Source: Lamellibrachia satsuma
Taxonomy: Eukaryota > Annelida > Polychaeta > Sabellida > Siboglinidae
DNA: 64,000 bases
Direction: 5' to 3'
Assembly: GCA_033239005.1 (NCBI GenBank)
Contig: BSQZ01000041.1
Span: 868,501-932,500 of the forward strand
The translations under genes were made by a program, and so were the position numbers. This document shows positions 120-36,489 of the stretch, piece after piece (the stretch's first letter is position 1; the number at the start of each line of letters is the position of its first letter). The notes under the pieces were generated by a model. It had not been told where the DNA came from. It made no database searches and worked only from the letters and a program-made list of their open reading frames with translations.

Positions 120-200
120 TGTGTCGTTGTCACTGAGGCTAGTCTTGATCTGCAGCTGAAGGTCAACTTGTTCTGCAGGTCTCAGCAGCCACCAATCAAG
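120..200 (+). CDS. UBA6: UBA6 exon (first in window)
   Basis: The acceptor TGTTTGCAG ends at 119 and the donor GTAGG follows 200. The exon is 81 nt, phase 0 to 0, and begins [20 protein letters not shown] and ends SQQPPIK. This is the segment before the first catalytic cysteine half-domain of E1s (CRSQ.PPIKF in UBA6). Confidence 0.9.
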
Positions 201-12200: not shown

Positions 12201-14124
12201 TAAACTATTTACATACTACTAATTTGACCAGCAACGAACCTGAGTCTCGATGGGCTAAATCAGTTGAGGAAGTTTGATGCTGTTTTATGACATAATTGTC
12301 TGCGTCAGGTGGACGAGGTAGACGAGACTATGCTGCGGAGACTGTCCTACAGTAGTCAGGGATGCCTTCCTCCACTCTGTGCCGCTATTGGGGGGTTAGT
12401 GGCCCAGGAGGTGTTGAAGGCACTCACTGGCAAATTTAGTCCTTTGAAACAGTGGGTAAGTCACTTTAGCAGCCCAGGAGGGGTTGAAGGCAGTCATGGG
12501 CAAATGTAGTCATTTAAAACGGTGGGTAAGTCTCTGTTTTGGCCCTGGAGGAGTTGAAGGCGCTCACTGGCAAATTTAGTCCTTTGAAACGTTGGGTAAA
12601 TAAGTCTGTATAATGGCTCAGGAGGTGTTGAAGGCATTCGCGGGCAAATTTAATCCTTTGAGACATTGGGTAAGTTACTGTTGTGGCCCATGATAAGTCA
12701 CTAATAAACATTAGCAAGAGGTCAATCAATATAATGAAACTGATATGAACGCCCAATGCAATGGGATTTCCGTAACTGCTGCCTTAAGTACTTGAGAACA
12801 GTATGGATTGTACACCTGTTGGTTTGTTGGTGAATTCAGTGTAAATTTCCACAGATTCATTTGGATGCGACAGAAGTGATGTTGAGTGAGGACCCCCCGG
12901 ACAGTAAGGAGTTCCTTCCCAGGTGAGTATATCCCCATCAGAGGACTGAATAGTGTTTTATCACATATTACAGCCATGTGTGCATGTAAAAAAATAGTGC
13001 TGAATTTCATGCATATATTTTTTATTTGACATGAAATATGTTGCTAACTAATTTGTAATAATGTTGTAACCTTGTACACTTTAGCTCTTGTTTTCTGTAA
13101 ACTAAATGAATAATTCATAATTCTCCACTGGCTACATTTATATTATTGTTTTAATTTGGGATATCGATAAGTAACTGCTTGCTGATTTAAAACTGAAACA
13201 TACTGATATGTAACATGGTGTAATATGTTACTAAATTGCATGTGAATATAAATATTAAATTGTACAGTGTTGCTATTTTGTGACGTCATTGCTGTCTGGA
13301 GGTGGGATGTTTAAAGAGCACATCATTGTGGTACTTCATGGTGTGTTTGCTGTCTGTAGGGGCACGAGATATGATGCACTGAGGATATGTATAGGAGAGA
13401 AACTGTGTCAGCGGCTCGCTGGTCTTAGGTTATTTATGGTGAGTGCACGCTAAGGCTATTTAAAGGTAGTGTCTTTTCTGTGTGTATACGGGTGCGTGGG
13501 TGTGTGTGTGTGTGTGCATGTGTGTGTGTGTGTGCGTGTGCATGTGCGTGTGTGAGTCTGTACATAGATACTAGTTACAGTGGAAGCTTGTTAATCTGGA
13601 CACCTTGGTTCTCAGTATACGTATCCAGATGAACAAGTTTTCCGGATAAACAAATCATGCAATTAATGGGATATATTAGTGTTTGGATATTCCGTTCCCT
13701 TGAAATGATGTCCAGATACATAGGTTTCTGGATTATAGGCACCCAGATTAAATAGATTCCACTGTATATGGAAGATCATCTTGATATCATGTACAATGAC
13801 CAATTTCTGTTAGGATCACATCTGGTTAGGCTGATGTCACTACTAGTATTACTGATGAAAGAAAAGAACTGCTGAATGATTTAAGGACAGAGGGGTATTT
13901 TCAAAGTGGGAAGTTATATTGTCCACACCAGAGTTGCAAATTGCATCAGAATTGCATTAGATACTTCTGATGCCACATGCATGTCTCACATGCATGCATG
14001 CGCACACATTTACACACACACACACACACACACACTCACTCACGCACCCATCCACACGCACCCACACACAAACTCGCACGCACCCACCCACATGCACCCA
14101 CCCGCACACACGCATGTACACACA

Positions 14125-14217
<93 letters not shown>

Positions 14218-14243
14218 TTTAGGGATGTTGTGCATATTATGTA

Positions 14244-14318
<75 letters not shown>

Positions 14319-17300
14319 TTGTGAATATTAGAATTTTATAGTCTTGCAGCTTTGATGATTGCAGTCTTCTATGTTTCTAGATTGGGTGCGGTGCAATTGG
14401 CTGTGAGATGTTGAAGAATTATGCCCTGCTGGGGGTAGCATCTTCAGAGAACGGTTTGGTAGGCACAGTTAACACATTTCACCATCTCTTGTCAATTGTA
14501 GCCTGTTGCATATGATTGGTTTGCTGATATATTATTTTTTTTTATTAGATATACATATATTTTTAATTTAGGATATTTGGACCCATATATGTTTGGGAAA
14601 CATTGAAACCAAGCTTCCAGGTTTGGTTGCAATCACTGAAACAGTTTCAATGCAGTTATAGGACGTGTTCAGTAAAATACCTCAATCTTTTTGTACTGAC
14701 AAAGTAATATCTTTATCTTTTATTAATAAAGTAATATCTTTATCTTTTATTTTATCTTAATCTTTAAATGATTATTTTGTTTATATTTGCCTGAAGCTGT
14801 TTCTCTAATGTAGAGCTATCATGATATTGCATTTTGACGTTGCAGATATCCATGACGGACCATGACCTGATAGAAAAGTCCAATTTGAACCGACAATTTC
14901 TGTTCAGACCACATCACATACGGGTTAGTTTCAATTTCTGTTCAGACCACACCACATATGGGTTAATTTCAATTTGTGTTATGACCACACCACATAAGGG
15001 TTAGTTTCAATTTCAGTTCAGATCACACCATATATGGGTTAGTTTAAATTTCTGTTCAGACCACACAACGTATGTGTTAGTTTAAATTTCTATTCAGATA
15101 CAGGTGAATTTCAATTTAAGTTAAGATCCCACCACCTACAGGTGAGTTTTTGTTTACGTTCACAGTCTTAAGACCATAACACATATGGGGTAGTTTCATT
15201 TTCTGTTCATACCATGACACATTGTTGGGTTAATTTCAGAAGTCAGCTTATTGGTCAGTTGCATCTATAATCAATTTAACTATTGTTTGATACTGAAATA
15301 AACTAGTTGGTGTGATAATATCATAGAGACATGACATAATTCCTGCAATAGATATGTGCGTGCGTGAGTGCGTGCGTGAGTGCGTGCGTGCGTGAGTGCG
15401 TGCGTGTGATGTATTTCATGGGCGGTTGTTTCAGCAACCTAAAAGTACAACAGCTGCTCTGTCAACCAAGGAACTAAACCCAGGTTGGTGCTTTCTTCAT
15501 GTGTTCTGTAATGTGCTGTCACGGTCTCCCACAATTTTTTTATTAAATATGCTGTCATATTTGTCCCGCCATTTATATATTAAGTGGCCTGTACCGGGTA
15601 TATCACGTTAGGCAACTTGAATAGAAAATGTATGACATAGATGTCAGTTCATATCTTAAATGCATGTTAATGGTTAATCAAGTTTAAAATGTATTTAATG
15701 TAATGGAATAATGTATTTGATCAATAACTATTTGTAGTTTATTGTAGAAGATGGTGAAAATTCAATGTTTACCATCCTTGGATGATTGTGTTGCATACAG
15801 ATTACTTGTGGGCCAGTTTGGAACTGACTTTATTTCTAACCTGCCAACATTGGAGATAACAGTTGGAGATAGAAATTATGTTTAAAAATATATTGAATAG
15901 TTATAAAGCCATTGATAGTAAAATGTTTTGTTAGATAGAACATATTAGATGTGAAACATACTAGTCTTGTAAAAAAATATTTTTAACAAGAAAACATCTG
16001 GTAAAGGCAGGCCACACATATATGAAAAACCATAGAACTTTCAATGTCACTGGATACTTTGTGCACATATCATGAAATATGTGGCTTTGGACTTATATAA
16101 CTGGACATTGTGTTTGTTTCAGAACTGAGGATTGATGCCCATCAGAATAGAGGTATTTGCCTGTGCACTGACACCTTTGTCTAGGCAAACACAGCACTAA
16201 CTGGACATGTACATGACCTTGAAGACAGAGGTCATAATTAACCAACTACTTTTGTTGCGTTCTATTGAGAAAAGCCTAGCTCAGGCGTCTTCACCAGTTG
16301 ATCTTGCACAATATGTAACTTACCAAGTTCATTATCTTCATAGTATTAGGTGTACTGGAAATAATCTATATGAATAAAGAATTGTTAACAGGGAAATGTT
16401 GATTGGATTATATTAAATTGGTCAGGAAAACTGAATATAACGCAGTAACCATGCATTGAACTTACGTGCTGCAGCATATCAGTAGATGATTTTATTCCTG
16501 ATTTCGTCCAAGTCTTGTGTGAATGAAATTGTATTGAGGCCGAGTGTCTATAGTGTCTGTGGTCTTGGTGATTGAGACCGAATGAATTGATAGTCTCGAG
16601 TGACAGTTTGGGAACCTGGCTCTGTGTATCGTTTAAGGAACCACAACAGTTTACAGTTGTAAGGCTGTAATAGTTTTGTAAGTAGACTCGCCAAAAGAGA
16701 ATACCATATGTTTCCAGTGTGTCCCGAAACAGAGAGCTCCTTGTACACGGACGCTTTCTTTGAGAGTCAGAATGTCATTGTCAATGCCCTGGACAATGTT
16801 GAAGCTCGTAGATATGTTGACAGGTGGGTGTCATCACTAGTGCTTTGACAGGGTGGTTCTGTCGGAGTTTGTCACATGTGTGTCAGTAGAATAGAGATTT
16901 TTCAACTATTGTGATGGGGCAGAAGTTGTTACAACTGTGTGTCATTTTATAATTGTGTGTAATTTTTTTTTGGCTTGTAAAATTGCTTCATAAATAAATT
17001 CATCAGTTTGGAAAGTTAAATAACTTGCAGCTCAATTGCCACCAAAATAGATCAATAAAACTGCACTCATTAAACAAACTAAGTATGAGCAGTTCTTCAT
17101 CATGTCCCATCAGTCATTCATGTTTACATAGCCCAGCTCTGTAGGATTCACCCCCTCGTTAGTGTTAGGTCAGTAGGAAACATAACCAAATGTTGCCCTC
17201 ATGTGAAGATTATCTTTTTGACCGTTCCTACCCTCTTTAGCCGCCTGTTATGTCCATCCATCCGTTGACAACTTTAATATCGTGTACCCGTTTTGAAATT

Positions 17301-19965
17301 GTTTAACCCTGTGCTCGGGTTTCTGAGCATTTAGGCGCAATGGAAGTTTTTGCATTATTATTAATATTGTTATTATTATTGTTGTTATTATTGCTATTAT
17401 TATTGTTATTAATATTATTGTTATTAATATTATTATTATTATTGTTATTAATATTATTGTTATTATTATTATTAATATTATTGTTATTATTATTATTATT
17501 GTTCCAAATGTAGGTTGTCTACATTCGTGGATCAGTGTTTACATGTGTCATAGTGTGCACTGATGGTTGGTGGGGTGGTCACATGTGTCGGTGACCGGTG
17601 GCGAATTGGCCCCACCTTTGTAGTTATTCCAGTTAGAGCTAGTGTATTTTTAAGCAGGTAGTTGTATTCATAGACTGTGTGATAGCATGTAGGGCATTAT
17701 GCTATTTGGTTTAAGGGTGTTCCATGACAATAGTAATGCCATTGTTTCTTTTATTTGTTCTAGGAATACTGCTACTGCTTTGTGGTGAAATGTGGGCTCT
17801 ATTGAACCCGACGTCCAGGAGGCTCGCATGGGGCGTAGTCAGCCTGGCGTTGGGTTGTGGAGTCCACATTTCTTTGTTTTACATTTCTTTGAAAGTGGGC
17901 TTACCCTTAATCCCCACAATAAACATCATTCATTTGGCCTTTTCATATCTCTATATCTGTGTTGTGTTGTTGATTGCATAAAACTATGTTCTCATGCAGT
18001 CGCTGTGTGACAACCCAGAGGGCGCTACTAGAGTCTGGTACAATGGGTGCGAAGGGCCACGTGCAGGTGATCGTACCTCATTTGACAGAGTCCTACGGCA
18101 GCCAGGTAATGTTCCTTTGATATTACAAATTACACATGATACATGTCTGATTTGTTAAGACTGATCTGAAGTAAAGCTTTTCTTCATGGTTTGCATACTT
18201 TTTATCAACCTTGTGGGGCAAAATAAATCTTATGTAAATTAATCATTGTTTTTCATAACTGTTTGATAGATGGCTTGATTAAAAACCAATGCATAGGTGT
18301 CAAAATGTATATAGACAATATATTATTTAATTAGGGTTAGGGTTTCCAATAAGTAGAATTAGTAGGTTTTTATAGATGTTTTGAGTTTGGCAGTAAAATG
18401 TATGGTTTGTAGTCCGTAATGTGAACCAGTGAAAAAGCCCAACGATACATTTAATGAAGGATTTAAGAATTTGAGGAATTTGGTCTGTTTAAGGAAGACT
18501 TAAACCAAATAAAAAATGTTAAACTAAACAGTTATCTTATGTTGTATGTGCCCAAAATAGTAGGCATTAAAGGAATATAACTATAGTTATAGAGGGTTGT
18601 TAAAGCAAGACAACAAGGGGCCACATAGGAATGTACAAAGAACATTTAATGCCAGGCATACATTGCCCGAGTCTGTGTGACGTCTCGTCAGAGACTGGCA
18701 TACATTGCCCGAGTCTGTGTGACGTCTCGTCAGAGACTGGCATACATTGCCCGAGTCATGTGTGACGTCTCGTCAGAGACTGGCATACATTGCCCGAGTC
18801 ATGTGTGACATCACGTCAGAGACTGGCATACATTGCCCAAGTCTGTGTGACGTCTCATCAGAGATGGGCATACATTGCCCAACTCTATGTGACGTCACAT
18901 CAGAGACTGGCATTAGGAGATGAACAATGGGTGTTTTGTTGCAGAGTGACCCCCCGGAGGAGGAGGTTCCCTACTGTACCCTCAAGTCCTTTCCTTCCCA
19001 AATTGAGCACTGCATCCAGTGGGCCAGGGACAAGGTAACATCACAAATAGTGACAGACACGTACTTCTAGACACTGACGGAGACAGAGATTGGTGTGAAT
19101 AAATTAAAACTTTTGTGAAAATGTTCATCAGGTTGGTAGAGAATAATGAAGTAATGATTTACTTCTAATCACAGCTATTTAGATTTACATAACATTTCGG
19201 CTTCCATCGTTAGCCTTCACTAGGAACTGAATTCTGGGATGGCTAGTTCTTCTTCTGCTCGCCAGTTGGCATGGCAAGCAGGCCGTCCCATGCGTGGCTG
19301 CATCGGTATCCCCCTCATCTCGATTCTTGATTGAAGTCGTCTTTTTATGCATATTGTCTCTTTAATCCATTCAGTCATGAGTTCCTAATGAAGACTACTC
19401 ACAGTAGCCAGAATGTTGAGTACGTAAATCTCAATAGTTTTGATTAGAAGACAGTCGTTACTTCAAACTAAAACATGTTTAAAATTTTAGGTTTTATTAT
19501 TAATATTATTATTATCCTTCCTTTAACATAATATTAATTGTGCAAAATGTTGCTGTAAGTTTATTATATTTGCAAGGCTGTAGACTTGTCTCTTTCTGTT
19601 TTAGTTTGAGAGTTCATTTTCCCACTTTCTGTTTCAGTTTGAGAGTTCATTTTCACAGAAACCTTCGCTGCATAACAAGTTCTGGGAGATCAACCGCTCC
19701 CCCGAGAATGTCACGGAGGTAACTCTAAAAACTTCCCCCTCAATTGATTCACGAATCAGGTTTGTAGAGGTTCGTGTATTTAGTGTGTGAATAGTATAAT
19801 TAATAGTGTGTGAGTAGTATAATTTAATTAATATGTGCAGTTAGTATTACAAGAGAGCATACTTTTGTTAAAAACGCCAAAGGAATTGACTACGTTCATT
19901 AGATTGGGTAACTTCCAAACTTGTAAATAGTGTTATAGTGTATGTAATATACATATATATATATA

Positions 19966-20013
<48 letters not shown>

Positions 20014-28162: not shown

Positions 28163-28242
<80 letters not shown>

Positions 28243-31200: not shown

Positions 31201-34200
31201 TATGAAGGCCCCATTAGAACACTACAAGAACTGTTTTCTCAACCTGGCCATACCTACTGTGATCTTCTCAGAACCGGGACCTGCTGAGAAGACCACACTG
31301 AGGTAAGTAGTTTCAAGGCCAAACCACTGCCCTACAGATCAAAACCTTCGTACTATATTTGACCTAGCAAGCATACAGTTCACTTGAAAAAATATGGACT
31401 ATGAAAAAATGTCAAGGAATCTGTTCTTATAAGTGTACACCAGGGATCAGCAAACTTTTTGGGACGAGGGCCAAAATTTGGAGCGCTATGTTAAGGCGGG
31501 CCAAAGCTCTTAAGCACGGAAAAACACAGTGCACAAATATTGCTTTTATTATCTGCTTTGCCAGGCTAAAAAATACGGTACTGTACAAGTAGAAAATGGA
31601 AACATTTTCGAAACAACGCAAGAGAAGTCAGCACATCTAATGAATGCAGTCAATGCGAAGGATGATACTGCATATTCTTCGACAACTGACTGAACTGTGG
31701 GCAGAGCGGAGAGATTGAGAGTCGCAGAAGATCCCTCAAACGTGTGTCCTTGAGTCGGCACCGAAGGTTGTTCTTGATGTGATTCGTGGCCGAGAATCCT
31801 GATTCACATAACCATGTGCTGCCGAAAAGCACCAGCAATTTCTGTGCTGCTTTGATCAGCACTGGAAATCGCACAGGCACTTGTGTTGCCCAGAAAAGCA
31901 CGACATCATCTTTCACAGCATTAAACTAATCTTTTAGTCCTGGCACCACCTTGAAATCGATGAAATTGTCCTGCAACGCTGCTTCGTCGACTGCAAATGT
32001 TTGCGATAATGTTTGGCAAATAGCTGGCTCTGCATTAAAAGGGCTTGCAAAGAAGCAGCAAACGTCGTTGATAGCAGCGAAGTCAGCGAATCGTCCGCTG
32101 AATGCGGTCTCCAGGCTGTTAAGCACATCAGCAAGTACCCGCTTGGCGTCTGCGATACGTTCATCGTCTTCGCCACAGAATTCTCTGGTGAACTTGAAGT
32201 GCAGAAAATTGCCGCCTTCTGCATGAACTTTGAAAAGTGTCACCTTGTCCTCGAAGCCCTTCACCGCTTTGTATAAATTACACAGCAACTTGTGCCGTCC
32301 TTGTAGCAGCAGGTTTAGTTTATTTAGGTGTCCGATAATGTCAGTCAGAACGCAGAGTCGCGCCCGAAACATGTCATCTTCCAGATGGGCAACTGGGTGA
32401 TCAATTTCTTTGAGAAAACTCACGATGTGAGGAAGCAGTGCAGCAAATCTCTCAAGAAATGCGCGTCGACTCAGCCATCGGACACTGTTGTAGAATAGCA
32501 CATCACCAAATTCTGCATCATCAAGTGCAGCCAAGTGATTTTGGAACCTCCTGTGGTTAAGAGAATATGCATGGATAAGGTTCACGCTCTGAACAGTTTT
32601 CATCGTATCCTGCAGCCTGCTTTCGCGCACAATGCTTGCTGGTGAATTATGCAGTGGTATGATATTAGATTCGACTTTCCGATTTCTTGATGGAACAACG
32701 CAACGAATCCAGCTTGACGACCAAGCATGCTGGGCATGCTGTCAAATCATTTTCTTCGCCGAACTTCAATAGCACACTGCAAACGTTCCGCGCTGTCGTT
32801 GTGCCCTTCAATGGGATCAGGCACAGGTCTTCTGATACACCTTTGTTGAAATACCGCACAGATACCATCAGCTGTGCCGTGTCACTTTTGTCAGTGCTTT
32901 CGTCGACAGCAAGTAAAAAAGCAGGACAGACTCGCAACTTAGTCATCAGCTGCATGAAAATGTCACTACTCAACTCATAACTTCGACGGGCACATGTGTC
33001 GGGTGAAAGTGGCAGTTTCCCAATCTGTTGCATGATCTTATCTTTGTTCTGGAAACCAGCGAACAGAACTTGAGCACTGGCCATGAAAGCCTTCTTGAAC
33101 AATTCTGTGTGAGCGAGTAAGTAACAGATGCGATAGCTGGCTTCATTAAGATGGCTCGAAGTGTCTGTAAACACAGATACTCTCTTCATCTCGCCCAAGT
33201 ATGCACCAAATCGTTTCTTGAACTCCTTCATGCGTTCGTCTTTTCCCACATATGCACCGTCAAAACAGTTTTTATGCTTTGAATCGTAATGCCGTGTCAC
33301 GTTATAGCGTTTCAGATCAGCAACGCTTTCTCTGCATATCAAACACACTGCTGTTTGGTCATGTTCACGATAGCAAAAGAAGTACTCATGCTCCAGGGCA
33401 GCGTCAAACACTCTCTTTCCGGAATAATCAAAACGACTTTTTTTTTTCGATATACGCCATAGTCCTGATATTCACAAATTCAATGTTAGCTGTGTCAAAG
33501 ATGGCTTGTTATTGAGCGATGTTTCATCCGGGTTTCTGGGAATCGAACGTTAGCTTCTGTTATATTAACAGTAGCGCCGCCTAGATAACATCACTGCAAA
33601 AGTGAAGGTTGTTGCTATTAAATGTGTACAAAGTTTACTCTGGCGAATTGACATTAAGTGAACAACAAAATTAATGATTCATAATATTTAAAATTTGTGT
33701 AAGCTCTATGGCTGTTTTGTAAAGTTGAAACATTCAGCATAATTGTATTGAAAACCATCAGGAAACACGTTATTTAGTGCTCATAGAACAACTTGAAAAT
33801 TGGTACTGAAAACAATTATATTGCAAGCATGGTCACACGGGCCAGTTGAAAGTGGGCCGCGGGTCAAATATGTCTAGTATAGAAAAACGGACAAGTTGTG
33901 CCAACTGTTTAACACCAGATGGCGACACTTTTCAGTTGTTCCACACTAGACAAATTACAATAATTAGGAATCATGTTCATTAAAAAAGGTGGTTACGCTA
34001 ATTAGGACATGTACACTTAATATGGTGAATACGGTATTTTAAACTTTTATTAATAACTTTATTAAGTGTGAGATCATTTCTGAAGAAATCCTGCTGGTTG
34101 AAAAGGGCGTGTACACTAATTAGGGCAAGAATGCTTAATAAGTTGAATCTGAATCACAACTTTAATTTTTATTCAGTATTCAGAACATTTATGTATCTGA

Positions 34201-36489
34201 CATTGTTTTTTTGCATTGTAGCTCGTGCTAAAATCCTCCCTTGATGGTGCGAAGGGTGTGATTTTGTGTTGTGTAAAAAAACTCCAGCCTTGTCAGTTCA
34301 GAAATTTAACATGTCTGCAGTCAGCATTCAATCATTAGATGCATGCACGCATACACACATTGTCCATACAGTGTGTAAAATTGTGTGAAGAGGGACAGAG
34401 GCTAGTGTTTTTGCCAGCCTCTTAGGGGTGATCTCAAACATCGATGTTTGACACTACACAACATTGGCAGGGTTAGCAACTGTTTCGTTTACCATTGAAC
34501 ATTAATATATTTTTCAAAAAAACATTTCTAATCACAGTTCATAAAGGTGCTGACTTTGAACATATATAGGTTGTTTTCCGTTGTGACAGCTGAATATAAA
34601 CACAATGTGACAATTAGAGCATGACAGATAAAGACATTTTCATTACCACATGTCAATGTACCGTATACAACCTAATAAGCACACAGAATGCTTGAAAAAA
34701 AAATTGGGCCACGGAAAAATGTCAAGGAATCTGTTCTTATAAGTGTACACCAAAATTTGTTTCTCTAGACAATAAGGTAACTGTTTAACACTAGTGGTGT
34801 CATTTGGTTTCTAGTGTAGAACAACAGAAAAGGGGGTGTACATTAATTAGGGCACGTACGCTTAATAGGTCGAATACGGTAATTCAGTTTCATGTAGCGG
34901 GGAACAAGGGTGACTGAGGTGAAATGACATGCCAATTATGCCATGCATCAGTGTTTTGAGTTCATCCCTTATGGGCCGTCATCTGTTGTAGCAATGGCCG
35001 CAGCCACACACTGTGGGATCACTGGCAAATCAAAGGCAATTCTGACTTCACTCTCAGGCAGTTCATTGACGCCGTCAAGGTCAGTCGTTATAGACATGTA
35101 GGGTTGTGGCCAGATGGAGAGATCACTGTCGGGTCTGTTGCCAGAATGAACTAAGCATGCATGCATGCACGCATGCAAGCGTACATACACGTGTTCTCAG
35201 AATCGGAAACTTTGTGAGTTTATAAATCCTGTCAAAGTTTGTTAATATAATTGATAATAGGTGCCCTTAATGTTATGAACATTCTCCACTGATGGTAAAA
35301 TTTAGTTAAATTCAGTGGGACGGTGAAATTCTTCTAAGTGTATTGTTTCTGTGAAAGCTTCCACAAACCAAGGATGCACACAACAGATAAGTGAATGCTG
35401 TTAATCTGCTCCGGGTTTTGACATGCCACTGGGCACTATCAGAAACATTGCAGTTGAAAAAAACCAGGTGTCAAGCCGTAGCATGCAGTCTGTTTTAATT
35501 TGATCTTGTCAGTAGCTGCAGTTTAAATTTTAAATGTTAATATAAAATGATCACTAACACTTGGTTATTTACAAGTAAAATGCAGAAAATTATCAAACAA
35601 GTTTATGATTACTGTCTGTGATCAAAAATGCATTTATGTGTACAGAACCCCTTAAAGCGGCCACCCCTTGGAAATGGCCGCCCCATGAAAATGACCACCC
35701 CTTGGAAACAGCCACGCCTTGAAAGCGGCCAGTATATCACAGTCAGTTTTTCCCACATCTGTATATTTGACCAGCCTCTATAATTCGGCCACCCCTTTAA
35801 TCAGGCCACTTTATCTCAGTCACTGGGTGGCCGTTTTAGAGGAGTTCTACTGTACGTGTGTTGGTGTGTAGAATGACTTGACGGTAACTGGAATATGTAT
35901 GAAGTGAGTGTTTGTGACAGGAGAAGTACGACATAGAAGTAGCCATGGTGGTTCATGGGGTGAAGATGGTCTATGTTCCCATCATGCCCACACACAAGAA
36001 ACGACTGTCACAAACGTGAGTTTTCTAGCATATTCATTGAGCCATCCAATTTGTATATAATTTCTTATTTGAATGTAACTATCAACAATCTTGACCTATA
36101 TATATTTTCTTTTATCTTTTTTTTTAATCAAAGTCATAGTCTGTAGTCCTAGCATTTTCGTCAAATGTAAACACTCCTAAACATGGCCTTACTCTGGATA
36201 TGAGTGTATAAAGTTGTTAGTGTTATATTGTTATCTGAATGATCCTTGTGGCCACAGGATGCTGAAGTTGTTAGTGTTATATTGTTATCTGAATGATCCT
36301 TGTGGCCACAGGATGTTGAAGTTGTTAGTGTTATATTGTTATCTGAATGATCCTTGTGGCCACAGGATGCTGAAGTTGCTGAAGCCGTCACCGGACAAGG
36401 AGTATGTTGACCTTGTAGTGTCCACCAGCACCGAAGACAATGAAGACAAAGTGATGCCACTCATTAGATATTTCTTCAAAGATAGGTGA
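120..36489 (+). CDS. UBA6: UBA6, ubiquitin-like modifier-activating enzyme 6 (E1), 29 exons, N-terminus outside window
   Basis: UBA6 is a cytosolic E1 that adenylates the C-terminus of ubiquitin (and FAT10 in vertebrates), takes it onto a catalytic cysteine as a thioester and passes it to E2s such as USE1. Twenty-nine exons join in phase into 910 codons plus TGA. Visible landmarks in the partial protein are the nucleotide loop IGCGAIGCE (about residues 315-323), NLNRQFLFR with the adenylation arginine (about 353-361), NVEARRYVD, the catalytic Cys in YCTLKSFP (residue 474), [42 protein letters not shown] and a C-terminal ubiquitin-fold domain ending RYFFKDR. Preference for UBA6 over UBA1 rests on DPPEEE before the cysteine motif, HLTESYGSQ, and the [10 protein letters not shown] and FWQSPKRPP regions, which follow vertebrate UBA6 as I remember it. 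About 150 residues are missing upstream of the window. No exon contains a stop or frameshift, so the gene looks functional. Single exons are listed separately. Confidence 0.95.
298..451. mobile_element. hAT-type MITE with 8-bp target-site duplication
   Basis: A 154-bp element starts CAGTGGCGTATTTAGG and ends CCAAATACACCACTG, which are imperfect inverted repeats. It is flanked on both sides by the exact 8-bp direct repeat ACTTGACC (290-297 and 452-459). Eight-base duplications and CAGTGGCGTA termini are typical of hAT elements. It has no coding capacity. It lies in the intron after the first visible UBA6 exon. Confidence 0.8.
460..2008. other. UBA6 intron, no recognisable feature
   Basis: AT-rich intronic sequence. 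I see no open frame with family resemblance and no clear repeat except short AT-rich stretches. Confidence 0.6.
2009..2131 (+). CDS. UBA6: UBA6 exon
   Basis: Acceptor CGTTTCAG ends at 2008 and donor GTGAGG follows 2131. The exon has 41 codons, phase 0 to 0, and reads [18 protein letters not shown], then [22 protein letters not shown]. It aligns with the FISADVHGIW...FCDFGDEFEVLD region of E1s. Confidence 0.93.
2349..3779. mobile_element. DNA transposon with long inverted ends, TA-flanked, non-autonomous or decayed
   Basis: The left end CCGTAAATTCTGTATTTG (2349) is the inverted copy of the right end CAAATACAGAATTTACGG (to 3779), and both are flanked by TA. The subterminal word GGTGCGGCTTTAAAT or a close match recurs near 2428, 3659 and 3733. 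On the - strand around 2650-2790 a decayed acidic stretch (FDSDD*SDFEG in one frame) resembles the acidic tail of pogo/Tigger-like transposases, consistent with a TA duplication, but no catalytic domain is visible. The pogo assignment is a weak inference; the inverted ends are seen directly. Confidence 0.65.
3800..4428 (-). mobile_element. LINE reverse transcriptase 3' fragment
   Basis: The - strand encodes a broken reverse-transcriptase C-terminus: [46 protein letters not shown], then [20 protein letters not shown] and [16 protein letters not shown]. These are the thumb and tail motifs of a common invertebrate non-LTR retrotransposon family. The frame is interrupted several times, so this is a dead 5'-truncated copy. 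It ends next to the dispersed repeat at 4454-4851. Confidence 0.75.
4435..4870 (-). repeat. Dispersed ~400-bp repeat (subfamily A) with 19-bp flanking direct repeats
   Basis: The core 4454-4851 is an inverted, highly similar copy of 17579-17980, and a more distant copy of 8403-8700 and 59040-59350. It is flanked by 19-bp direct repeats of form GACATAAAGGTnTTTATGC (4435-4453 and 4852-4870, one mismatch), which suggests target-primed insertion into the older intron repeat seen at 4871-5195. An 85-codon hydrophobic frame occurs in this and the intronic copy, but the differences between them look neutral. Confidence 0.7.
4871..5195 (+). repeat. Old dispersed repeat shared by several UBA6 introns
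   Basis: Words such as CTCATTTCAAATAAATTTTGC, AGTATCCATGGCAACATG, GTGAAATCATC and GGCTAAATCATTTGAGGAAG recur in order at 11870-12285 and partly at 2158-2280. This indicates an ancient interspersed repeat, class unknown. The element at 4454-4851 is inserted into it. Confidence 0.55.
5225..5346 (+). repeat. Short tandem repeat (GATATGAACATAT-type)
   Basis: Imperfect 18-22 bp units built from GATAGGAACAT and GATATGAACAT repeat about six times. It gives rise to spurious repetitive open frames on the - strand. Confidence 0.85.
5650..5908 (-). mobile_element. tRNA-derived SINE
   Basis: Read on the - strand, the head from 5908 resembles a tRNA with an intact Pol III A box (TGGTCTAATGG, 5887-5897) and an exact B box (GGTTCGATTCC, 5843-5853), most like tRNA-Asp/Glu. 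The acceptor and anticodon stems do not pair well. The body continues as unrelated sequence (AAGACACTAAAAGCCG...), as in tRNA-related SINEs. It is therefore called a SINE rather than a tRNA gene. Confidence 0.65.
5983..6106 (+). CDS. UBA6: UBA6 exon
   Basis: Acceptor GTTACAG ends at 5982 and donor GTAGGT follows 6106. The exon is 124 nt and ends in phase 1. It reads [20 protein letters not shown], then [21 protein letters not shown], matching the FCCH-region motif (ANPGIV..LEN...L..G...TF.E..GM) of E1s. Confidence 0.94.
6587..6696 (+). CDS. UBA6: UBA6 exon
   Basis: Acceptor TTCACTGTAG ends at 6586 and donor GTAAGT follows 6696. The exon is 110 nt, entered in phase 1. It reads [16 protein letters not shown], then [17 protein letters not shown], equivalent to the PFSFSIGDT...GGIAVQVK segment of UBA6. 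Confidence 0.92.
6799..7045 (+). repeat. 41-bp pyrimidine-rich minisatellite
   Basis: About six copies of a 41-bp CT-rich unit (CCTCACATATTCCCCTCATG plus CTTCCCTTTCCCTAT). The long open frames across it are low-complexity artefacts. Confidence 0.9.
7190..7515 (-). mobile_element. LINE 3' terminal fragment
   Basis: The - strand gives [17 protein letters not shown], then [17 protein letters not shown] and KKMVYTWDE, a decayed relative of the ...[18 protein letters not shown]... tail of the LINE family seen at 3800-4428. Stops and frame changes are frequent. Confidence 0.55.
7780..7919 (+). CDS. UBA6: UBA6 exon
   Basis: Acceptor TCCTTGTAG ends at 7779 and donor GTAAGT follows 7919. The exon is 140 nt and ends in phase 2. 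It reads [20 protein letters not shown], then [20 protein letters not shown]. This is the helical region after the FCCH part, linking to the second catalytic-cysteine half. Confidence 0.93.
8403..8700 (+). repeat. Dispersed repeat, subfamily B copy
   Basis: From GGTGGGGTGG through GAATGTGGGCTCTGAGAAAC and TTTATTTGGCC, this is about 85-90% like the inverted copy at 59040-59350 by eye. It also shares GGTGGGGTGG, GTGGGCTCT and CATTTATTTGGCC landmarks with subfamily A (4454-4851, 17579-17980). Confidence 0.65.
8940..9985 (-). mobile_element. LINE fragment, endonuclease-to-RT linker region
   Basis: On the - strand the frames read [11 protein letters not shown], then [15 protein letters not shown], and further on [19 protein letters not shown], a hallmark of the linker before the reverse transcriptase in Jockey/CR1-group LINEs (LA..F..FF..KI..IR). 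Several frameshifts and stops interrupt it. It lies in the UBA6 intron 7920-11715 on the strand opposite the gene. Confidence 0.65.
10129..10195 (+). repeat. 22-bp unit, three tandem copies
   Basis: TGATGGGGTGGTTGTCCTTG with a short join is repeated three times in a row. Confidence 0.9.
10462..10590 (+). mobile_element. CR1-like LINE 3' end
   Basis: Matches the 3' termini of the copies ending near 42490, 45475 and 50358: GGAGGGCGGGTTA, then ATAAGCCAATGGCTTCC, ATCTGGGCC and a terminal repeat of AATCTTGTTA. A short tandem repeat instead of poly(A) is characteristic of CR1-type LINEs. Confidence 0.75.
10640..11245 (+). mobile_element. CR1-like LINE, RT palm-to-thumb fragment
   Basis: Frames on the + strand match the near-complete copy at 45475-48395: [50 protein letters not shown] and [18 protein letters not shown]. 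It is broken by several indels. It shares a 2-bp coding deletion with the - strand copy near 46530. Confidence 0.85.
11716..11785 (+). CDS. UBA6: UBA6 exon
   Basis: Acceptor CCTTTGCAG ends at 11715 and donor GTATCT follows 11785. The exon is 70 nt, entered in phase 2. It reads [20 protein letters not shown], then ASK. Aligns with the QQDSEELLKLATSISE helix region of UBA6. Confidence 0.9.
11870..12285 (+). repeat. Old dispersed repeat, second copy
   Basis: Shares with 4871-5195 the ordered words TTTGATTTTTTGCTCGTC, ATCAATCCTA, GTTGAAATCATC and GGGCTAAATCAGTTGAGGAAG, as well as the CTATGTACTATGACA word seen at 4425. Diverged and without coding potential. Confidence 0.5.
12309..12455 (+). CDS. 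UBA6: UBA6 exon
   Basis: Acceptor TGCGTCAG ends at 12308 and donor GTAAGT follows 12455. The exon has 49 codons, phase 0. It reads [20 protein letters not shown], then [20 protein letters not shown] and GKFSPLKQW. It includes the AAIGG..AQEVLKA.TGKF..L.Q motif that closes the inactive adenylation half in all E1s. Its 3' end and donor are tandemly duplicated into the intron. Confidence 0.97.
12400..12680 (+). repeat. Tandem array founded on the exon end plus 5' splice site (70 bp)
   Basis: The last ~55 nt of the exon ending at 12455, together with its GTAAG donor, are repeated three more times in the intron. Donor-like GTAAG, GTAAA and GTAAG lie at 12526, 12596 and 12670 (spacing 70, 70, 74). 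Each copy keeps a recognisable CAGGAG-GTTGAAGGC-GGCAAAT-T-GG core. Reading through the true donor reaches a stop within the second unit. Confidence 0.95.
12855..12922 (+). CDS. UBA6: UBA6 exon
   Basis: Acceptor TTTCCACAG ends at 12854 and donor GTGAGT follows 12922. The exon is 68 nt and ends in phase 2. It reads [20 protein letters not shown], then LP. Matches the WLYLEA...EEFLPR linker between the two adenylation halves. Confidence 0.92.
13360..13438 (+). CDS. UBA6: UBA6 exon
   Basis: Acceptor TGTCTGTAG ends at 13359 and donor GTGAGT follows 13438. The exon is 79 nt. It reads [20 protein letters not shown], then GLRLFM. It is the RYDALRACIGDTLCQKL start of the active adenylation domain. 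Confidence 0.95.
13578..13764. mobile_element. 187-bp MITE, TA target site (pogo/Tigger-like ends)
   Basis: Inverted ends CAGTGGAAGCTTGTTAATCT and AGATTAAATAGATTCCACTG are flanked by TA on both sides (13576-13577, 13765-13766). TA duplications and CAGTGGAA..TTAATC termini suggest a pogo/Tigger-derived MITE. No coding capacity. Confidence 0.75.
14006..14217. repeat. (CA)n microsatellite
   Basis: Long CA tract with interruptions in its 5' half. The open frames across it (runs of HTHT or CVCV) are artefacts. Confidence 0.98.
14238..14315. repeat. (TA)n microsatellite
   Basis: Nearly pure TA tract of about 75 bp, 20 bp after the CA tract. Confidence 0.98.
14381..14458 (+). CDS. UBA6: UBA6 exon with the nucleotide-binding loop
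   Basis: Acceptor TGTTTCTAG ends at 14380 and donor GTAGGC follows 14458. The exon has 26 codons, phase 0, and reads [20 protein letters not shown], then [14 protein letters not shown] is the GxGxxG ATP-binding loop of the active adenylation half, intact here. Confidence 0.97.
14846..14923 (+). CDS. UBA6: UBA6 exon with adenylation-site residues
   Basis: Acceptor ACGTTGCAG ends at 14845 and donor GTTAGT follows 14923. The exon has 26 codons, phase 0, and reads [20 protein letters not shown], then RPHHIR. [18 protein letters not shown] holds the aspartate, asparagine and arginine residues that contact ATP and Mg in E1s; all are present. Its 3' end plus donor is tandemly repeated. Confidence 0.97.
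14890..15240 (+). repeat. 38-bp tandem array founded on the exon end plus 5' splice site
   Basis: The sequence TTTCTGTTCAGACC..CACATA.GG GTTAGTTTCAA, which is the end of the exon at 14923 with its donor, repeats with GTTA-type donors at 14924, 14962, 15000 and about 15038. More degenerate copies run to about 15240. Confidence 0.92.
15355..15410. repeat. GTGCGTGC simple repeat
   Basis: GTGCGTGCGTGAGTGCGTGC-type simple repeat just upstream of the next UBA6 acceptor. Confidence 0.9.
15435..15483 (+). CDS. UBA6: UBA6 exon (49 nt)
   Basis: Acceptor TTGTTTCAG ends at 15434 and donor GTTGGT follows 15483; ends in phase 1. Reads [16 protein letters not shown], equivalent to KPKSYTAADATLKINS of UBA6. 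Confidence 0.88.
16123..16152 (+). CDS. UBA6: UBA6 micro-exon (30 nt)
   Basis: Acceptor TTTGTTTCAG ends at 16122 and donor GTATTT follows 16152, entered and left in phase 1. Reads [10 protein letters not shown], matching QIKIDAHLNKV. At 30 nt it is unusually short, but it is required to keep phase between its neighbours. Confidence 0.85.
16718..16823 (+). CDS. UBA6: UBA6 exon
   Basis: Acceptor ATGTTTCCAG ends at 16717 and donor GTGGGT follows 16823; 106 nt, leaves in phase 2. Reads [20 protein letters not shown], then [26 protein letters not shown] is the strictly conserved E1 motif of the active adenylation half. Confidence 0.97.
17350..17502. repeat. (ATT)n-rich microsatellite
   Basis: About 150 bp of ATT/GTT trinucleotide repeats with AATATT interruptions. 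Confidence 0.97.
17579..17980 (+). repeat. Dispersed ~400-bp repeat (subfamily A), + copy abutting a UBA6 acceptor
   Basis: Close inverted copy of 4454-4851. It ends at ATTGCATAAA about 20 bp before the acceptor of the exon starting at 18000, so it supplies the upstream flank of that intron end. It contains an 85-codon hydrophobic frame at 17724-17981, judged non-coding because about 12 of 16 differences from the other copy change the residue. Confidence 0.75.
18000..18105 (+). CDS. UBA6: UBA6 exon
   Basis: Acceptor CTCATGCAG ends at 17999 and donor GTAATG follows 18105; entered in phase 2. Reads [20 protein letters not shown], then [15 protein letters not shown]. Carries the conserved L.SGT.G.KG...V.P.LTESY motif that leads into the catalytic cysteine domain. 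Confidence 0.97.
18650..18912 (+). repeat. 42-bp minisatellite, about six copies
   Basis: Units carry GAGACTGGCATACATTGCCC and TGTGACGTCTCGTCA. The CRE-like TGACGTC word is in every copy but is probably incidental. It lies about 30 bp upstream of the catalytic-cysteine exon and does not include its acceptor. Confidence 0.92.
18945..19034 (+). CDS. UBA6: UBA6 exon with the catalytic cysteine
   Basis: Acceptor TTTGTTGCAG ends at 18944 and donor GTAACA follows 19034; 30 codons, phase 0. Reads [20 protein letters not shown], then [10 protein letters not shown]. The TGT codon at 18975-18977 is the thioester-forming cysteine in the E1 signature CTL(K/R)xFP. The acidic DPPEEE before it is typical of E1s of this class. 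Confidence 0.98.
19590..19655 (+). repeat. 33-bp direct duplication of a 3' splice site and exon start
   Basis: TTTCTGTTTTAG followed by TTTGAGAGTTCATTTTC at 19593-19621 is repeated as TTTCTGTTTCAG plus the same exon start at 19626-19654. The interval is a multiple of three and has no stop. Confidence 0.95.
19638..19718 (+). CDS. UBA6: UBA6 exon with duplicated acceptor
   Basis: Acceptor TCTGTTTCAG ends at 19637 and donor GTAACT follows 19718; 27 codons, phase 0. Reads [20 protein letters not shown], then SPENVTE. A second full acceptor plus the first 18 exonic nt lies 33 bp upstream (TTCTGTTTTAG ending 19604), so use of it would add 11 residues in frame. Confidence 0.94.
19947..20014. repeat. 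(TA)n microsatellite
   Basis: TA-rich tract with a single TTTA interruption. Confidence 0.97.
20415..20543 (+). CDS. UBA6: UBA6 exon
   Basis: Acceptor TTGTTGCATAG ends at 20414 and donor GTCAGT follows 20543; 43 codons, phase 0. Reads [20 protein letters not shown], then [20 protein letters not shown] and NHK. Matches the KIQSGHSLEG...[16 protein letters not shown] catalytic-domain segment. Confidence 0.96.
20755..21156. mobile_element. MITE family with TACCGTATTCGACC-type ends (one or two joined copies)
   Basis: Starts CTGTATTCCACCTATTAAGTG and ends CTAGGTCGAATACGG. An internal second start at about 20945 suggests two joined copies. The same family is intact at 34661-34879 and split by a hAT insertion at 31353-31440 plus 33890-34034. 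All copies lie in UBA6 introns. Confidence 0.65.
21256..21307 (+). CDS. UBA6: UBA6 exon
   Basis: Acceptor TTTTTTCAG ends at 21255 and donor GTAAGT follows 21307; 52 nt, leaves in phase 1. Reads [17 protein letters not shown], matching LLHCFPLDIRLKDGS. Confidence 0.93.
21606..21669 (+). CDS. UBA6: UBA6 exon
   Basis: Acceptor CCATCTGTAG ends at 21605 and donor GTGAGT follows 21669; 64 nt. Reads [20 protein letters not shown], the [12 protein letters not shown] motif conserved in UBA1 and UBA6. Confidence 0.96.
21757..22414 (+). repeat. 42-bp tandem array founded on a 3' splice site and exon start
   Basis: About 15 copies of TCATACAGACTTTGTGGTGC followed by TACAGTGTTGCACCTGTTTCAG-like sequence. 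The last copy is the real acceptor (TCTGTTTCAG ending 22414) and exon start TCATACAGACTTTGTTGT. The unit is 42 bp and mostly open, so long frames with [10 protein letters not shown] arise. One unit is inverted, making a 26-bp perfect hairpin at 22160-22216. Confidence 0.95.
22415..22484 (+). CDS. UBA6: UBA6 exon
   Basis: Acceptor ends at 22414 and donor GTATGT follows 22484; 70 nt, entered in phase 2. Reads [20 protein letters not shown], then RPQ. Equivalent to LSFLQNAAKLYATVYCIPF. The next acceptor upstream (22372) would add 14 residues without a stop. Confidence 0.94.
22818..22889 (+). CDS. UBA6: UBA6 exon
   Basis: Acceptor TCTGCTTTAG ends at 22817 and donor GTAAGT follows 22889; 24 codons. 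Reads [20 protein letters not shown], then PSSK, matching the LLNILSEVKIQEFKPSNK segment. Confidence 0.93.
22995..23384 (-). mobile_element. hAT transposon remnant (GTF2IRD2/FAM200-type transposase piece)
   Basis: Begins CAGGGGTGAACAACCTTTTTC and ends near GCCCACCCTTGG, hAT-like inverted ends. The - strand frame between reads [20 protein letters not shown], then [20 protein letters not shown]. This resembles the domain after the BED finger in GTF2IRD2/ZBED-class hAT transposases. Heavily internally deleted. Confidence 0.55.
23455..24838 (+). repeat. 56-bp satellite array, about 25 copies, partly dimeric
   Basis: Unit carries GACTGTAAGTGTTGACACAG, CAAGGCTCCATTGCTGTACA and TTACACTTGTTATGTA. 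At the 5' end two variants (CAGTACTGCACAC and CATTGCTGTACAT) alternate, giving a 112-bp higher-order repeat; the 3' part is homogenised on one variant. A GTAAGTGT donor-like word is in nearly every unit, but the array is not contiguous with an exon. Confidence 0.97.
25042..25168 (+). CDS. UBA6: UBA6 exon
   Basis: Acceptor GTCTGCTACAG ends at 25041 and donor GTAGGT follows 25168; 127 nt, leaves in phase 1. Reads [20 protein letters not shown], then [20 protein letters not shown] and PQ. Acidic, poorly conserved linker of the E1 (VVQTDETARK... in human). Its 3' end and donor found the following array. Confidence 0.88.
25142..26492 (+). repeat. 47-bp tandem array founded on the exon end plus 5' splice site, about 28 copies
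   Basis: The exon end AGTCTCAAAAAGACAGTGCC-ACAAG with its donor GTAGGTGATGG is repeated about 28 times at 47-bp spacing (first donors 25169 and 25216). Nearly every unit keeps a strong donor (ACAAG|GTAGGT), and many also hold a TATCAGTCTCAG acceptor-like word 17 nt before it. Read-through from the exon stops at once (TGA in the first unit). Confidence 0.97.
27120..27588 (+). repeat. ~20-bp minisatellite (TATGTACAGGACAGACACC)
   Basis: About 24 imperfect copies of a 19-20 bp unit. No junction with an exon. Confidence 0.95.
28165..28237. repeat. (TA)n microsatellite
   Basis: Pure TA tract of about 70 bp. Confidence 0.98.
28484..28593 (+). CDS. UBA6: UBA6 exon
   Basis: Acceptor ATTTTTTGCAG ends at 28483 and donor GTGAGT follows 28593; 110 nt, entered in phase 1. 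Reads [20 protein letters not shown], then [32 protein letters not shown] is a hallmark of E1 enzymes that closes the catalytic domain. Confidence 0.98.
28705..29113 (+). mobile_element. tRNA-related SINE-like element
   Basis: The head holds a degenerate B box (GGAGTTTGAATCC, 28762-28774) preceded by a tRNA-like ATTATCAGACTCTCAATCT stretch. The body continues with CTCAGTTCACTCGGCTATAT, then ATGAGTACCTGGC, and the tail TCTGCCAGGGGGTGAAG shared with 1-60. It lies directly upstream of a UBA6 exon. Confidence 0.5.
29204..29317 (+). CDS. UBA6: UBA6 exon
   Basis: Acceptor GCATGTTTCAG ends at 29203 and donor GTGAGT follows 29317; 38 codons, phase 0. Reads [20 protein letters not shown], then [18 protein letters not shown]. 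The IPAIATTTA...GL motif positions the adenylation site; all conserved residues are present. The donor is multiplied in the following array. Confidence 0.98.
29311..30885 (+). repeat. 68-bp tandem array founded on a 5' splice site, about 23 copies
   Basis: The exon end TGGACTT|GTGAGTCACCTTATC is the first unit. It is followed by about 22 near-identical 68-bp units whose equivalent is TGTACT|GTGAGTTGCCTTATC (second donor at 29386). Units differ by only one or two bases, so expansion or homogenisation is recent. Read-through from the exon stops at the TGA of the second unit. Confidence 0.98.
31141..31233 (+). repeat. 20-bp exon sequence copied just upstream of its acceptor
   Basis: TTAGAACACTACAAGAACTG occurs in the intron at 31141-31160 and again inside the exon at 31214-31233. 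TTTACA precedes both, which suggests an older duplication of acceptor plus exon start with an internal deletion. Confidence 0.85.
31175..31302 (+). CDS. UBA6: UBA6 exon
   Basis: Acceptor TTGTTTACAG ends at 31174 and donor GTAAGT follows 31302; 128 nt, leaves in phase 2. Reads [20 protein letters not shown], then [24 protein letters not shown].......[10 protein letters not shown]...F.EP matches the end of the E1 adenylation fold. Confidence 0.97.
31353..34034. mobile_element. MITE copy split by a hAT insertion
   Basis: The left part (31353-31440, CTATATTTGACCTAGC ... AATCTGTTCTTATAAGTG) and right part (about 33890-34034, AACTGTTTAACACCAGATGG ... GAATACGG) line up with the intact element at 34661-34879. 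The intervening 2.4 kb is a hAT element. This gives a relative age: MITE first, hAT later. Confidence 0.7.
31441..33875 (-). mobile_element. Degenerate hAT transposon with ZBED/GTF2IRD2-like transposase
   Basis: Starts CAGGGATCAGCAAACTTTTT, a hAT-like terminus. The - strand encodes a transposase in pieces. At 33411-32665 there is a BED-like finger ([21 protein letters not shown]-x2-C...H-x4-H). At 32630-31926 is the central RNase-H-like part ([32 protein letters not shown]). At 31916-31650 is the C-terminal dimerisation region ([26 protein letters not shown]). At least two frameshifts near 32740-32640 and an in-frame TAA at 31926-31928 break it. The right terminus near 33875 is eroded and no 8-bp duplication was found. 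Confidence 0.85.
34661..34879. mobile_element. 219-bp MITE, TA target site
   Basis: Ends CCGTATACAACCTAATAAGC and CTTAATAGGTCGAATACGG are inverted repeats flanked by TA (34659-34660, 34880-34881). Same family as 20755-21156 and the split copy at 31353-34034. Confidence 0.75.
34992..35079 (+). CDS. UBA6: UBA6 exon
   Basis: Acceptor ATCTGTTGTAG ends at 34991 and donor GTCAGT follows 35079; 88 nt, entered in phase 2. Reads [20 protein letters not shown], then [13 protein letters not shown]...G..DFTL..F..AVK is the start of the ubiquitin-fold domain. Confidence 0.95.
35643..35852. mobile_element. 210-bp MITE, TA target site
   Basis: Ends CAGAACCCCTTAAAGCGGCC and GGCCGTTTTAGAGGAGTTCT(ACTG) are imperfect inverted repeats flanked by TA (35641-35642, 35853-35854). 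The interior repeats GGCCACCCCTT-type words. Mariner/pogo-like by target site. Confidence 0.75.
35921..36015 (+). CDS. UBA6: UBA6 exon
   Basis: Acceptor TTTGTGACAG ends at 35920 and donor GTGAGT follows 36015; 95 nt, leaves in phase 2. Reads [20 protein letters not shown], then [11 protein letters not shown]. Ubiquitin-fold domain core (KY.IE..MVV.GVKM.YVP.MP.H.KRL). Confidence 0.97.
36211..36372 (+). repeat. 54-bp tandem repeat founded on a 3' splice site, three acceptors
   Basis: AAGTTGTTAGTGTTATATTG and TATCTGAATGATCCTTGTGG then CCACAGGATGCTG recur at 54-bp spacing. Three identical CCACAG|GAT acceptors end at 36257, 36311 and 36365, the last being the one that gives the conserved exon. 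The spacing is a multiple of three and open, so either upstream acceptor would add 18 or 36 residues ([18 protein letters not shown] per unit). Confidence 0.96.
36366..36489 (+). CDS. UBA6: UBA6 last coding exon
   Basis: Acceptor GGCCACAG ends at 36365; entered in phase 2. Reads [20 protein letters not shown], then [20 protein letters not shown] and TGA at 36487-36489. The E1 C-terminus (KYVDL.V.......P..RY.F) is complete. Confidence 0.96.

Follow-up and report, generated by a model that had tools for sequence, protein, structure and literature searches.

Minisatellites in the genes of this annelid assembly contain a splice junction far more often than their number and placement would lead one to expect. 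In three genes taken together (UBA6, an IP3-receptor-like or ITPR-like gene, and CRNKL1), the junction lies inside 16 of 30 arrays of period at least 30 bp, flush arrays included, where 2.98 are expected (P=2e-9). The original prediction was that TRF arrays would coincide with splice junctions more often than by chance, and in these three genes pooled they do. The repeat units are 33-85 bp long, and each resembles its own exon edge. About evenly balanced, in our judgement, is the case that splice junctions are the preferred place for tandem duplications of this size to arise, with likely growth into the intron afterwards.

The window, by which we mean the whole 64-kb stretch analysed, corresponds to positions 868501-932500 of contig C41 in an assembly of 735 Mb and 279 contigs. 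It carries the gene UBA6:

120..36486, plus strand: UBA6 gene, 29 visible exons and 28 introns, with the Pfam domains ThiF, UBA_E1_SCCH, E1_FCCH, E1_4HB and E1_UFD

The stop codon is TGA at 36487-36489, and the 5' exons lie upstream of the window. All 28 introns have GT-AG ends in the gene model, in which two acceptors (6587 and 28514) were set by comparison with relatives. The protein is 97% identical to that of Lamellibrachia satsuma over 89% of the query, 83% identical to that of Ridgeia piscesae and about 60% identical to that of Branchiostoma. These values point to a Lamellibrachia tubeworm as the likely host and led to the rejection of amphioxus, which the literature on mirages had first suggested.

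A minisatellite lies at the true splice junction in 7 of the 28 introns, as judged by TRF and the gene model; this is the number that had been noted. The donors of exons 7, 11, 23 and 25 and the acceptors of exons 17, 21 and 29 are involved. These arrays, a possible relic and four control arrays are as follows:

12395..12690, plus strand: donor-side junction array at the end of exon 7 (12455), 70 bp x4.2 by TRF, with 57 nt of exon per unit
14894..15240, plus strand: donor-side junction array at the end of exon 11 (14923), 38 bp, x5.4 by TRF to 15098, with decayed copies to about 15240
19592..19654, plus strand: acceptor-side junction array at the start of exon 17 (19638), 33 bp x1.9 by TRF
21767..22433, plus strand: acceptor-side junction array at the start of exon 21 (22415), 42 bp x about 16 by TRF
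25143..26508, plus strand: donor-side junction array at the end of exon 23 (25168), 47 bp x29 by TRF
29317..30880, plus strand: donor-flush array at the end of exon 25 (29317), 68 bp x23 by TRF, with one exon base per unit
36211..36380, plus strand: acceptor-side junction array at the start of exon 29 (36366), 54 bp x3.1 by TRF
31139..31233, plus strand: possible relic, about 21 nt of the interior of exon 26 found about 73 bp upstream in the intron, from reading the sequence
6792..7046, plus strand: control intronic array, 41 bp x6.2 by TRF, 95 bp from a donor
18655..18913, plus strand: control intronic array, 42 bp x6.1 by TRF, 31 bp from an acceptor that lies outside the array
23457..24828, plus strand: control intronic array, 56 bp x24.6 by TRF, away from junctions
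27132..27585, plus strand: control intronic array, 19 bp x23.9 by TRF, away from junctions

Both the exon side and the intron side of the junction are copied in six of the seven (with 18+18 nt of junction context), and the seventh, at 29317, is flush with the donor and does not span it. Copies on the donor side run from the exon into the intron, and those on the acceptor side finish at the exon. The exon part of each unit is that exon's own sequence. The claim that every array copies its own exon edge together with its splice signal thus holds for UBA6. The related claim, that this is not one mobile repeat, is supported by the exon-23 unit, the only unit searched, which has 28 matches in the 735-Mb assembly, all in its own array (the search skipped common words and scored only the best candidates). 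It had also been noted that some intron arrays begin elsewhere, and the arrays at 18655..18913 and 27132..27585 are indeed not at junctions. An eighth case (31141/31214) had been put forward as an older, deleted version. The copy of 21 nt from the interior of exon 26 is present, but the junction is not copied above background in a comparison with a junction-centred 40-mer, and the proposed history is unproven.

The splice signal itself is retained in most copies, at varying strength. Counting the real sites, GT or AG is kept in 79 of the 85 junction copies in UBA6: 4/4 at exon 7 (GT), 6/8 at exon 11 (GT), 2/2 at exon 17 (AG), 13/16 at exon 21 (AG), 28/29 at exon 23 (GT), 23/23 at exon 25 (GT) and 3/3 at exon 29 (AG). 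The arrays at exons 17 and 29 are open in frame, as is the interval 22173-22433 of the exon-21 array. In the latter the copies do not all run head to tail, since 22153-22200 holds part of the 42-bp unit in inverted orientation.

All 28 intronic copies of the exon-23 unit have G where the exon has A, which changes K to R in 26 copies and to G in two. The L. satsuma protein has R at this residue, which is read as K in the exon here. The intronic copies thus appear to keep an older state of the exon, and if they do, copying ran from the exon to the array. Two protein records, each of which may be a prediction, bear on the splicing of the gene. The Ridgeia protein crosses all 7 array junctions, with no repeat inserted at any of them. 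The L. satsuma protein crosses 6 of the 7 without inserts and diverges from exon 27 onward.

Other genes came from a blind sample of twenty 10-kb stretches (L011-L030) at preset positions on odd-numbered contigs, comprising 187.5 kb without N. The sample holds 46 arrays of period at least 30 bp (0.245/kb), which occupy 13% of the bases. The assembly is therefore very rich in minisatellites, and UBA6, with 10 such arrays in 36 kb, is average in array number. Genes in these stretches were located by a codon-score scan, by which weak exons will have been missed. The recognisable multi-exon genes were ITPR-like (L021), CRNKL1 (L022) and ATP6V1C, encoding V-ATPase subunit C (L013). A polycystin exon (L012) and a neurensin-like ORF (L014) stayed outside the junction tests.

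The ITPR-like gene carries eight junction-spanning arrays over 50 kb. Four are in the blind stretch and four more in 40 kb of flanks, which were fetched after the first four had been seen and are thus not a random sample. Pieces of the gene had no match in Pfam, and a first PDB search was likewise negative. With the exons joined in order, PDB searches gave IP3 receptors, and solved structures are matched collinearly in three stretches (E=8e-27). Alignment to one receptor or another covers four of the eight array junctions; for the remaining four the support is codon score, splice sites and exon order. To place the exon ends, the sequence was read alongside codon scores and splice sites. The donor at rc 4352 comes from reading, since the exon prediction continued into the array at that point. 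Of the model's 26 exons, 22 are taken from the 28 candidates of the exon finder, some with ends reset by reading, and four were read from the sequence. The candidates at rc 2177, 4743, 13689, 27518, 28915 and 44067 were left out, and with a doubtful donor and a doubtful acceptor also set aside, 50 junctions remain. By the copy numbers of the assembly, the arrays reach about 82 copies in this gene and 29 in UBA6.

CRNKL1, extended by 10 kb, has a single array (51 bp x8) that is flush at an acceptor and has only 4 nt in common with the exon (15800). The same structure is thus present in the ITPR-like gene (at eight junctions) and in CRNKL1 (at one, flush), and it is therefore not specific to UBA6. 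ATP6V1C and a 4-kb segment of a dynein heavy chain gene have no junction-copying array. One CRNKL1 intron (L022/L035, 3899-10907) consists mostly of three consecutive arrays, 73 bp x51, 85 bp x13 and 84 bp x24, none of which is at a junction. Another (L022, 1003-1398), which follows the gene's second exon in that stretch, has the ends ATATCCTT...AC and restores both the reading frame and the conserved protein text. It resembles a U12-type AT-AC intron.

Six of the 8 acceptor-side arrays have a unit length divisible by three (P=0.02), as do 3 of the 8 donor-side arrays. The idea arose from UBA6 itself, and in the later genes alone the acceptor count is 3 of 5 (P=0.21). A rule that acceptor-side arrays are always in frame and open, to which the UBA6 units of 33, 42 and 54 bp conform, is broken by the 85 and 55 bp units of the ITPR-like gene and by a stop in its in-frame 75 bp unit; the tendency is at most suggestive.

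Copied junctions were counted by a single rule: up to 1.6 kb into the intron there must be a gapped match that scores 18 or more and takes in 5 nt or more from either side of the junction. By this rule the junction is copied at 6/56 junctions in UBA6, 8/50 in ITPR-like, 0/21 in CRNKL1, 0/6 in ATP6V1C and 0/10 in dynein, a total of 14/143. The 56 junctions of UBA6 are those in the window, with the upstream 5' exons (L010) left out, and the flush arrays at 29317 in UBA6 and 15800 in CRNKL1 fail the rule. The strict cases are clumped, all 14 being in UBA6 and ITPR-like.

A junction-centred 40-mer finds a copy of at least 32/40 at 6 of the 56 UBA6 junctions, the next best being 23/40. Random intronic points in UBA6 have a nearby copy of at least 30/40 in 330 of 1500 cases (22%), because arrays fill much of the intron space. 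The only fair null for junction copies in these array-rich introns is one based on founder units. For this null, every array was reduced to a single founding unit, which was placed uniformly over introns and junctions. A control on points, with 15 of 1595 in the introns, did not serve as the main null because the arrays were left out of it.

Under the founder null, which assumes that all intronic bases are equally old targets, contact with a junction is expected for 1.33 of the 20 UBA6 arrays of period at least 10 bp and is seen in 7 (P=1.6e-4). For a period of at least 30 bp it is 7 of 10 against 0.96 (P=6e-6). UBA6 had been flagged for this very pattern, so that the other genes weigh more. 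Without UBA6 the pooled excess is 9/20 against 1.74 expected (P=1.6e-5). The three genes pooled give 16/64 against 4.12 (P=1.3e-6) at a period of at least 10 bp. At a period of at least 30 bp, the excess persists when the intron space is halved to allow for young inserts (16/30 against 5.15, P=5e-6), more weakly when it is cut to one third (P=6e-4), and when the two flush arrays are scored as misses (14/30, P=6e-8). For three of the 16 junction arrays (ITPR-like 4365 and 47153, CRNKL1 15376), TRF places the edge 9-12 bp into the intron, and they were assigned to the junction on reading the sequence. Five arrays of period at least 30 bp lie outside the pool (two in L013, two in L012 and one in dynein). 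None of them is at a known junction, and their inclusion would give 16/35.

The bias has a distinct shape. The 14 non-junction arrays of period at least 30 bp are spread evenly over the introns (KS p=1); 5 of them lie no more than 100 bp from a junction, where 4.8 are expected. No difference between junction arrays and the rest is seen in the length of the unit (p=0.57), the number of copies (p=0.98) or their identity (p=0.49). The exon share of the unit varies from 0.01 to 0.84 (from TRF edges or reading), and the position of the junction in the unit fits a uniform distribution (p=0.50). The data reject a rate that scales with exon content (p=0.002) but not one that scales with intron content (p=0.12). 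Eight junction arrays are at donors and eight at acceptors, flush arrays included, and each sits at one end of its intron. What matters is that the array contains the junction, not that it is close to an exon. This leaves two readings, a bias in birth at the junction point or a retention of those duplications that contain a junction.

Retention is the main rival. Duplications would arise evenly, and those containing a junction would survive longer or be favoured, and so accumulate. The suggested causes are redundant sites or an end unit under constraint and thereby protected from deletion. This reading fits the uniform placement of the junction within the unit and the symmetry of donors and acceptors, and the preponderance of acceptor units divisible by three is expected if upstream acceptors are sometimes used and survival is limited to those in frame. 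That frame bias, however, was first seen in UBA6 and is not significant in the later genes alone, with a stop in the 75 bp unit and no matching trend at donors. Nor are the spanning arrays more diverged than the others, although equal identity is compatible with retention if arrays are constantly homogenised. The splice-signal columns of the UBA6 copies are no better conserved than the others (divergent in 44/764 against 166/3699, p=0.13), which speaks against upkeep as functional sites and against the selection for decoy or redundant sites that the original prediction had offered as a cause. We regard retention as possible, with the doubts outweighing the support. The same prediction had named R-loops as another cause. 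A mutational hot zone around exon ends, produced by R-loops, polymerase pausing, or nucleosome or GC steps, would duplicate any nearby segment. Among non-junction arrays of period below 30 bp, 12 of 36 are no further than 100 bp from a junction, where 8.4 would be expected, a slight surplus that is not significant (KS p=0.16). The longer arrays that adjoin junctions are not in excess at all, donors and acceptors are equally affected, unlike in a direction-dependent process, and proportionality to exon content is rejected. Such a zone is thus quite improbable.

A genome so rich in minisatellites might also land arrays on junctions by chance. UBA6 is indeed ordinary in its number of arrays, and the appearance of the junction as a founder is forced by geometry, since copies of an exon can fall only on the intron side. 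The count of 16 in 30 where about 3 are expected, and its persistence without the flagged gene, nevertheless make the absence of any bias unlikely. Very improbable is the capture of splice sites, in which the array came first and the exon boundary moved onto one of its sites. Copies do carry strong sites: in 25 of the 28 exon-23 copies the site equals or exceeds the real donor in score. At exons 7, 11 and 17, however, the copied ends encode residues common to annelids, scallop and amphioxus, so that the exon is original there; the end of exon 23 is too little conserved to tell which came first. Long arrays are difficult to assemble, but the copies differ by scattered substitutions, the cases lie on three contigs (C41, C21 and C23) and short arrays of 2-4 copies are among them. 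An assembly artefact is hardly credible.

We favour a birth bias at the junction over these rivals, at about even odds, with the physical trigger reached by elimination. The process would likely start with a tandem duplication of 33-85 bp, preferentially over a splice junction, and the array would then likely lengthen into the intron by slippage or unequal exchange. The trigger may be an event at the junction point, for example a short DNA structure, linked to stalled transcription or to the spliceosome, that straddles the junction. Such a structure could be cut at both edges and filled in. A break or a template switch at the junction point itself is a possible cause. The duplication would be tolerated because the copy attached to the exon body could still be spliced (exon definition), and the extra sites would then lie inside the intron.

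The original prediction stated that no described process seeds minisatellites at exon-intron borders. In this it was mistaken. Minisatellite-like tandem duplications of exon-intron boundaries, called mirages, have been described in amphioxus (PMC3087553, PMC3902484). In the parts of these papers available to us, either boundary is duplicated, unit lengths are gene-specific and splicing is reported to be intact. The genes concerned are Adh3 (retold) and the globins BflGb6 and BflGb9 (PMC3087553), and TnC and PGBD5 (PMC3902484). Among the matches listed, mirages of this kind occur only in amphioxus (PMC3087553, PMC3902484); a paper on birds that contains the word (PMC5714495) was left aside.

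The arrays of UBA6 and the ITPR-like gene have the same structure as the amphioxus mirages. Exon and intron parts are copied together as one unit in six of the seven UBA6 arrays and in all eight ITPR-like arrays. Both 5' and 3' boundaries are affected, the units are specific to the locus, and many but not all of the UBA6 copies carry AG or GT. The junction arrays thus extend known mirages to a distant phylum, the annelids. They differ from those of amphioxus in their host, which is not a cephalochordate, in reaching up to 29 (UBA6) and about 82 (ITPR-like) copies, and in that the excess over chance is measured here. In amphioxus, according to the same parts of the papers, splicing and length instability were tested by RT-PCR or haplotypes, whereas the present arrays are known from the sequence of one assembly.

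Three other systems are related in part, as far as the accessible portions of the sources describe them. One is intron gain, in which a segment with AG|GT is duplicated in tandem (Rogers 1989, cited in PMC3087553; potato RdRp, PMC4974935). Splice signals are part of the duplication there too, but the intron arises inside an exon, whereas each of our arrays is at one end of an intron. Polyubiquitin has dual-specific splice sites in its tandem repeats (PMC10809524), and it resembles our arrays in having splice sites in every unit. Its array is coding and the sites delimit monomers; ours is intronic, and only the site attached to the exon is presumably used. The minisatellites of earthworm metallothionein lie inside intron 1, and the part of PMC12783039 available to us does not describe them as copies of a junction.

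Mirages have so far been a scattered curiosity of amphioxus genes. Their occurrence in a likely annelid, at 14 of the 143 junctions examined and above chance expectation even when the flagged gene is left out, suggests a mutational or selective link between junctions and tandem duplication. A long-standing model in which new exon ends or introns form from duplicated boundaries becomes testable, and many stages should coexist in such a genome. If arrays are seeded at junctions, as is likely, they would be a recurring raw material for changes in gene structure. More tentatively, and with more doubt than confidence, we suggest that splice junctions are point triggers of tandem duplication in annelids and cephalochordates, that a minisatellite sits on roughly one in ten junctions independently of gene and side, and that this gives a steady supply of duplicated exon ends and splice sites for new exon ends, isoforms and introns. 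Arrays of real-looking sites can also mislead gene prediction and splice-site counts in such genomes.

The window contains other repetitive elements as well. An insert at 31926-33471 (minus strand) in intron 26 of UBA6 has two long ORFs, one with a Spin-doc zinc finger (PF18658) and the other without a Pfam match; it is likely derived from a DNA transposon. A GC-rich block at 61244-64000 (54% GC over 60-64 kb) has gag-like and reverse-transcriptase-like ORFs recognised by eye, and its first ORF has no Pfam match. A non-LTR retroelement is represented at 46507-48447 (minus strand) by an ORF for endonuclease and reverse transcriptase (PF00078, PF14529), with several damaged relatives seen by eye at about 10.7-11.3, 41.4-42.5 and 50.6-51.7 kb.
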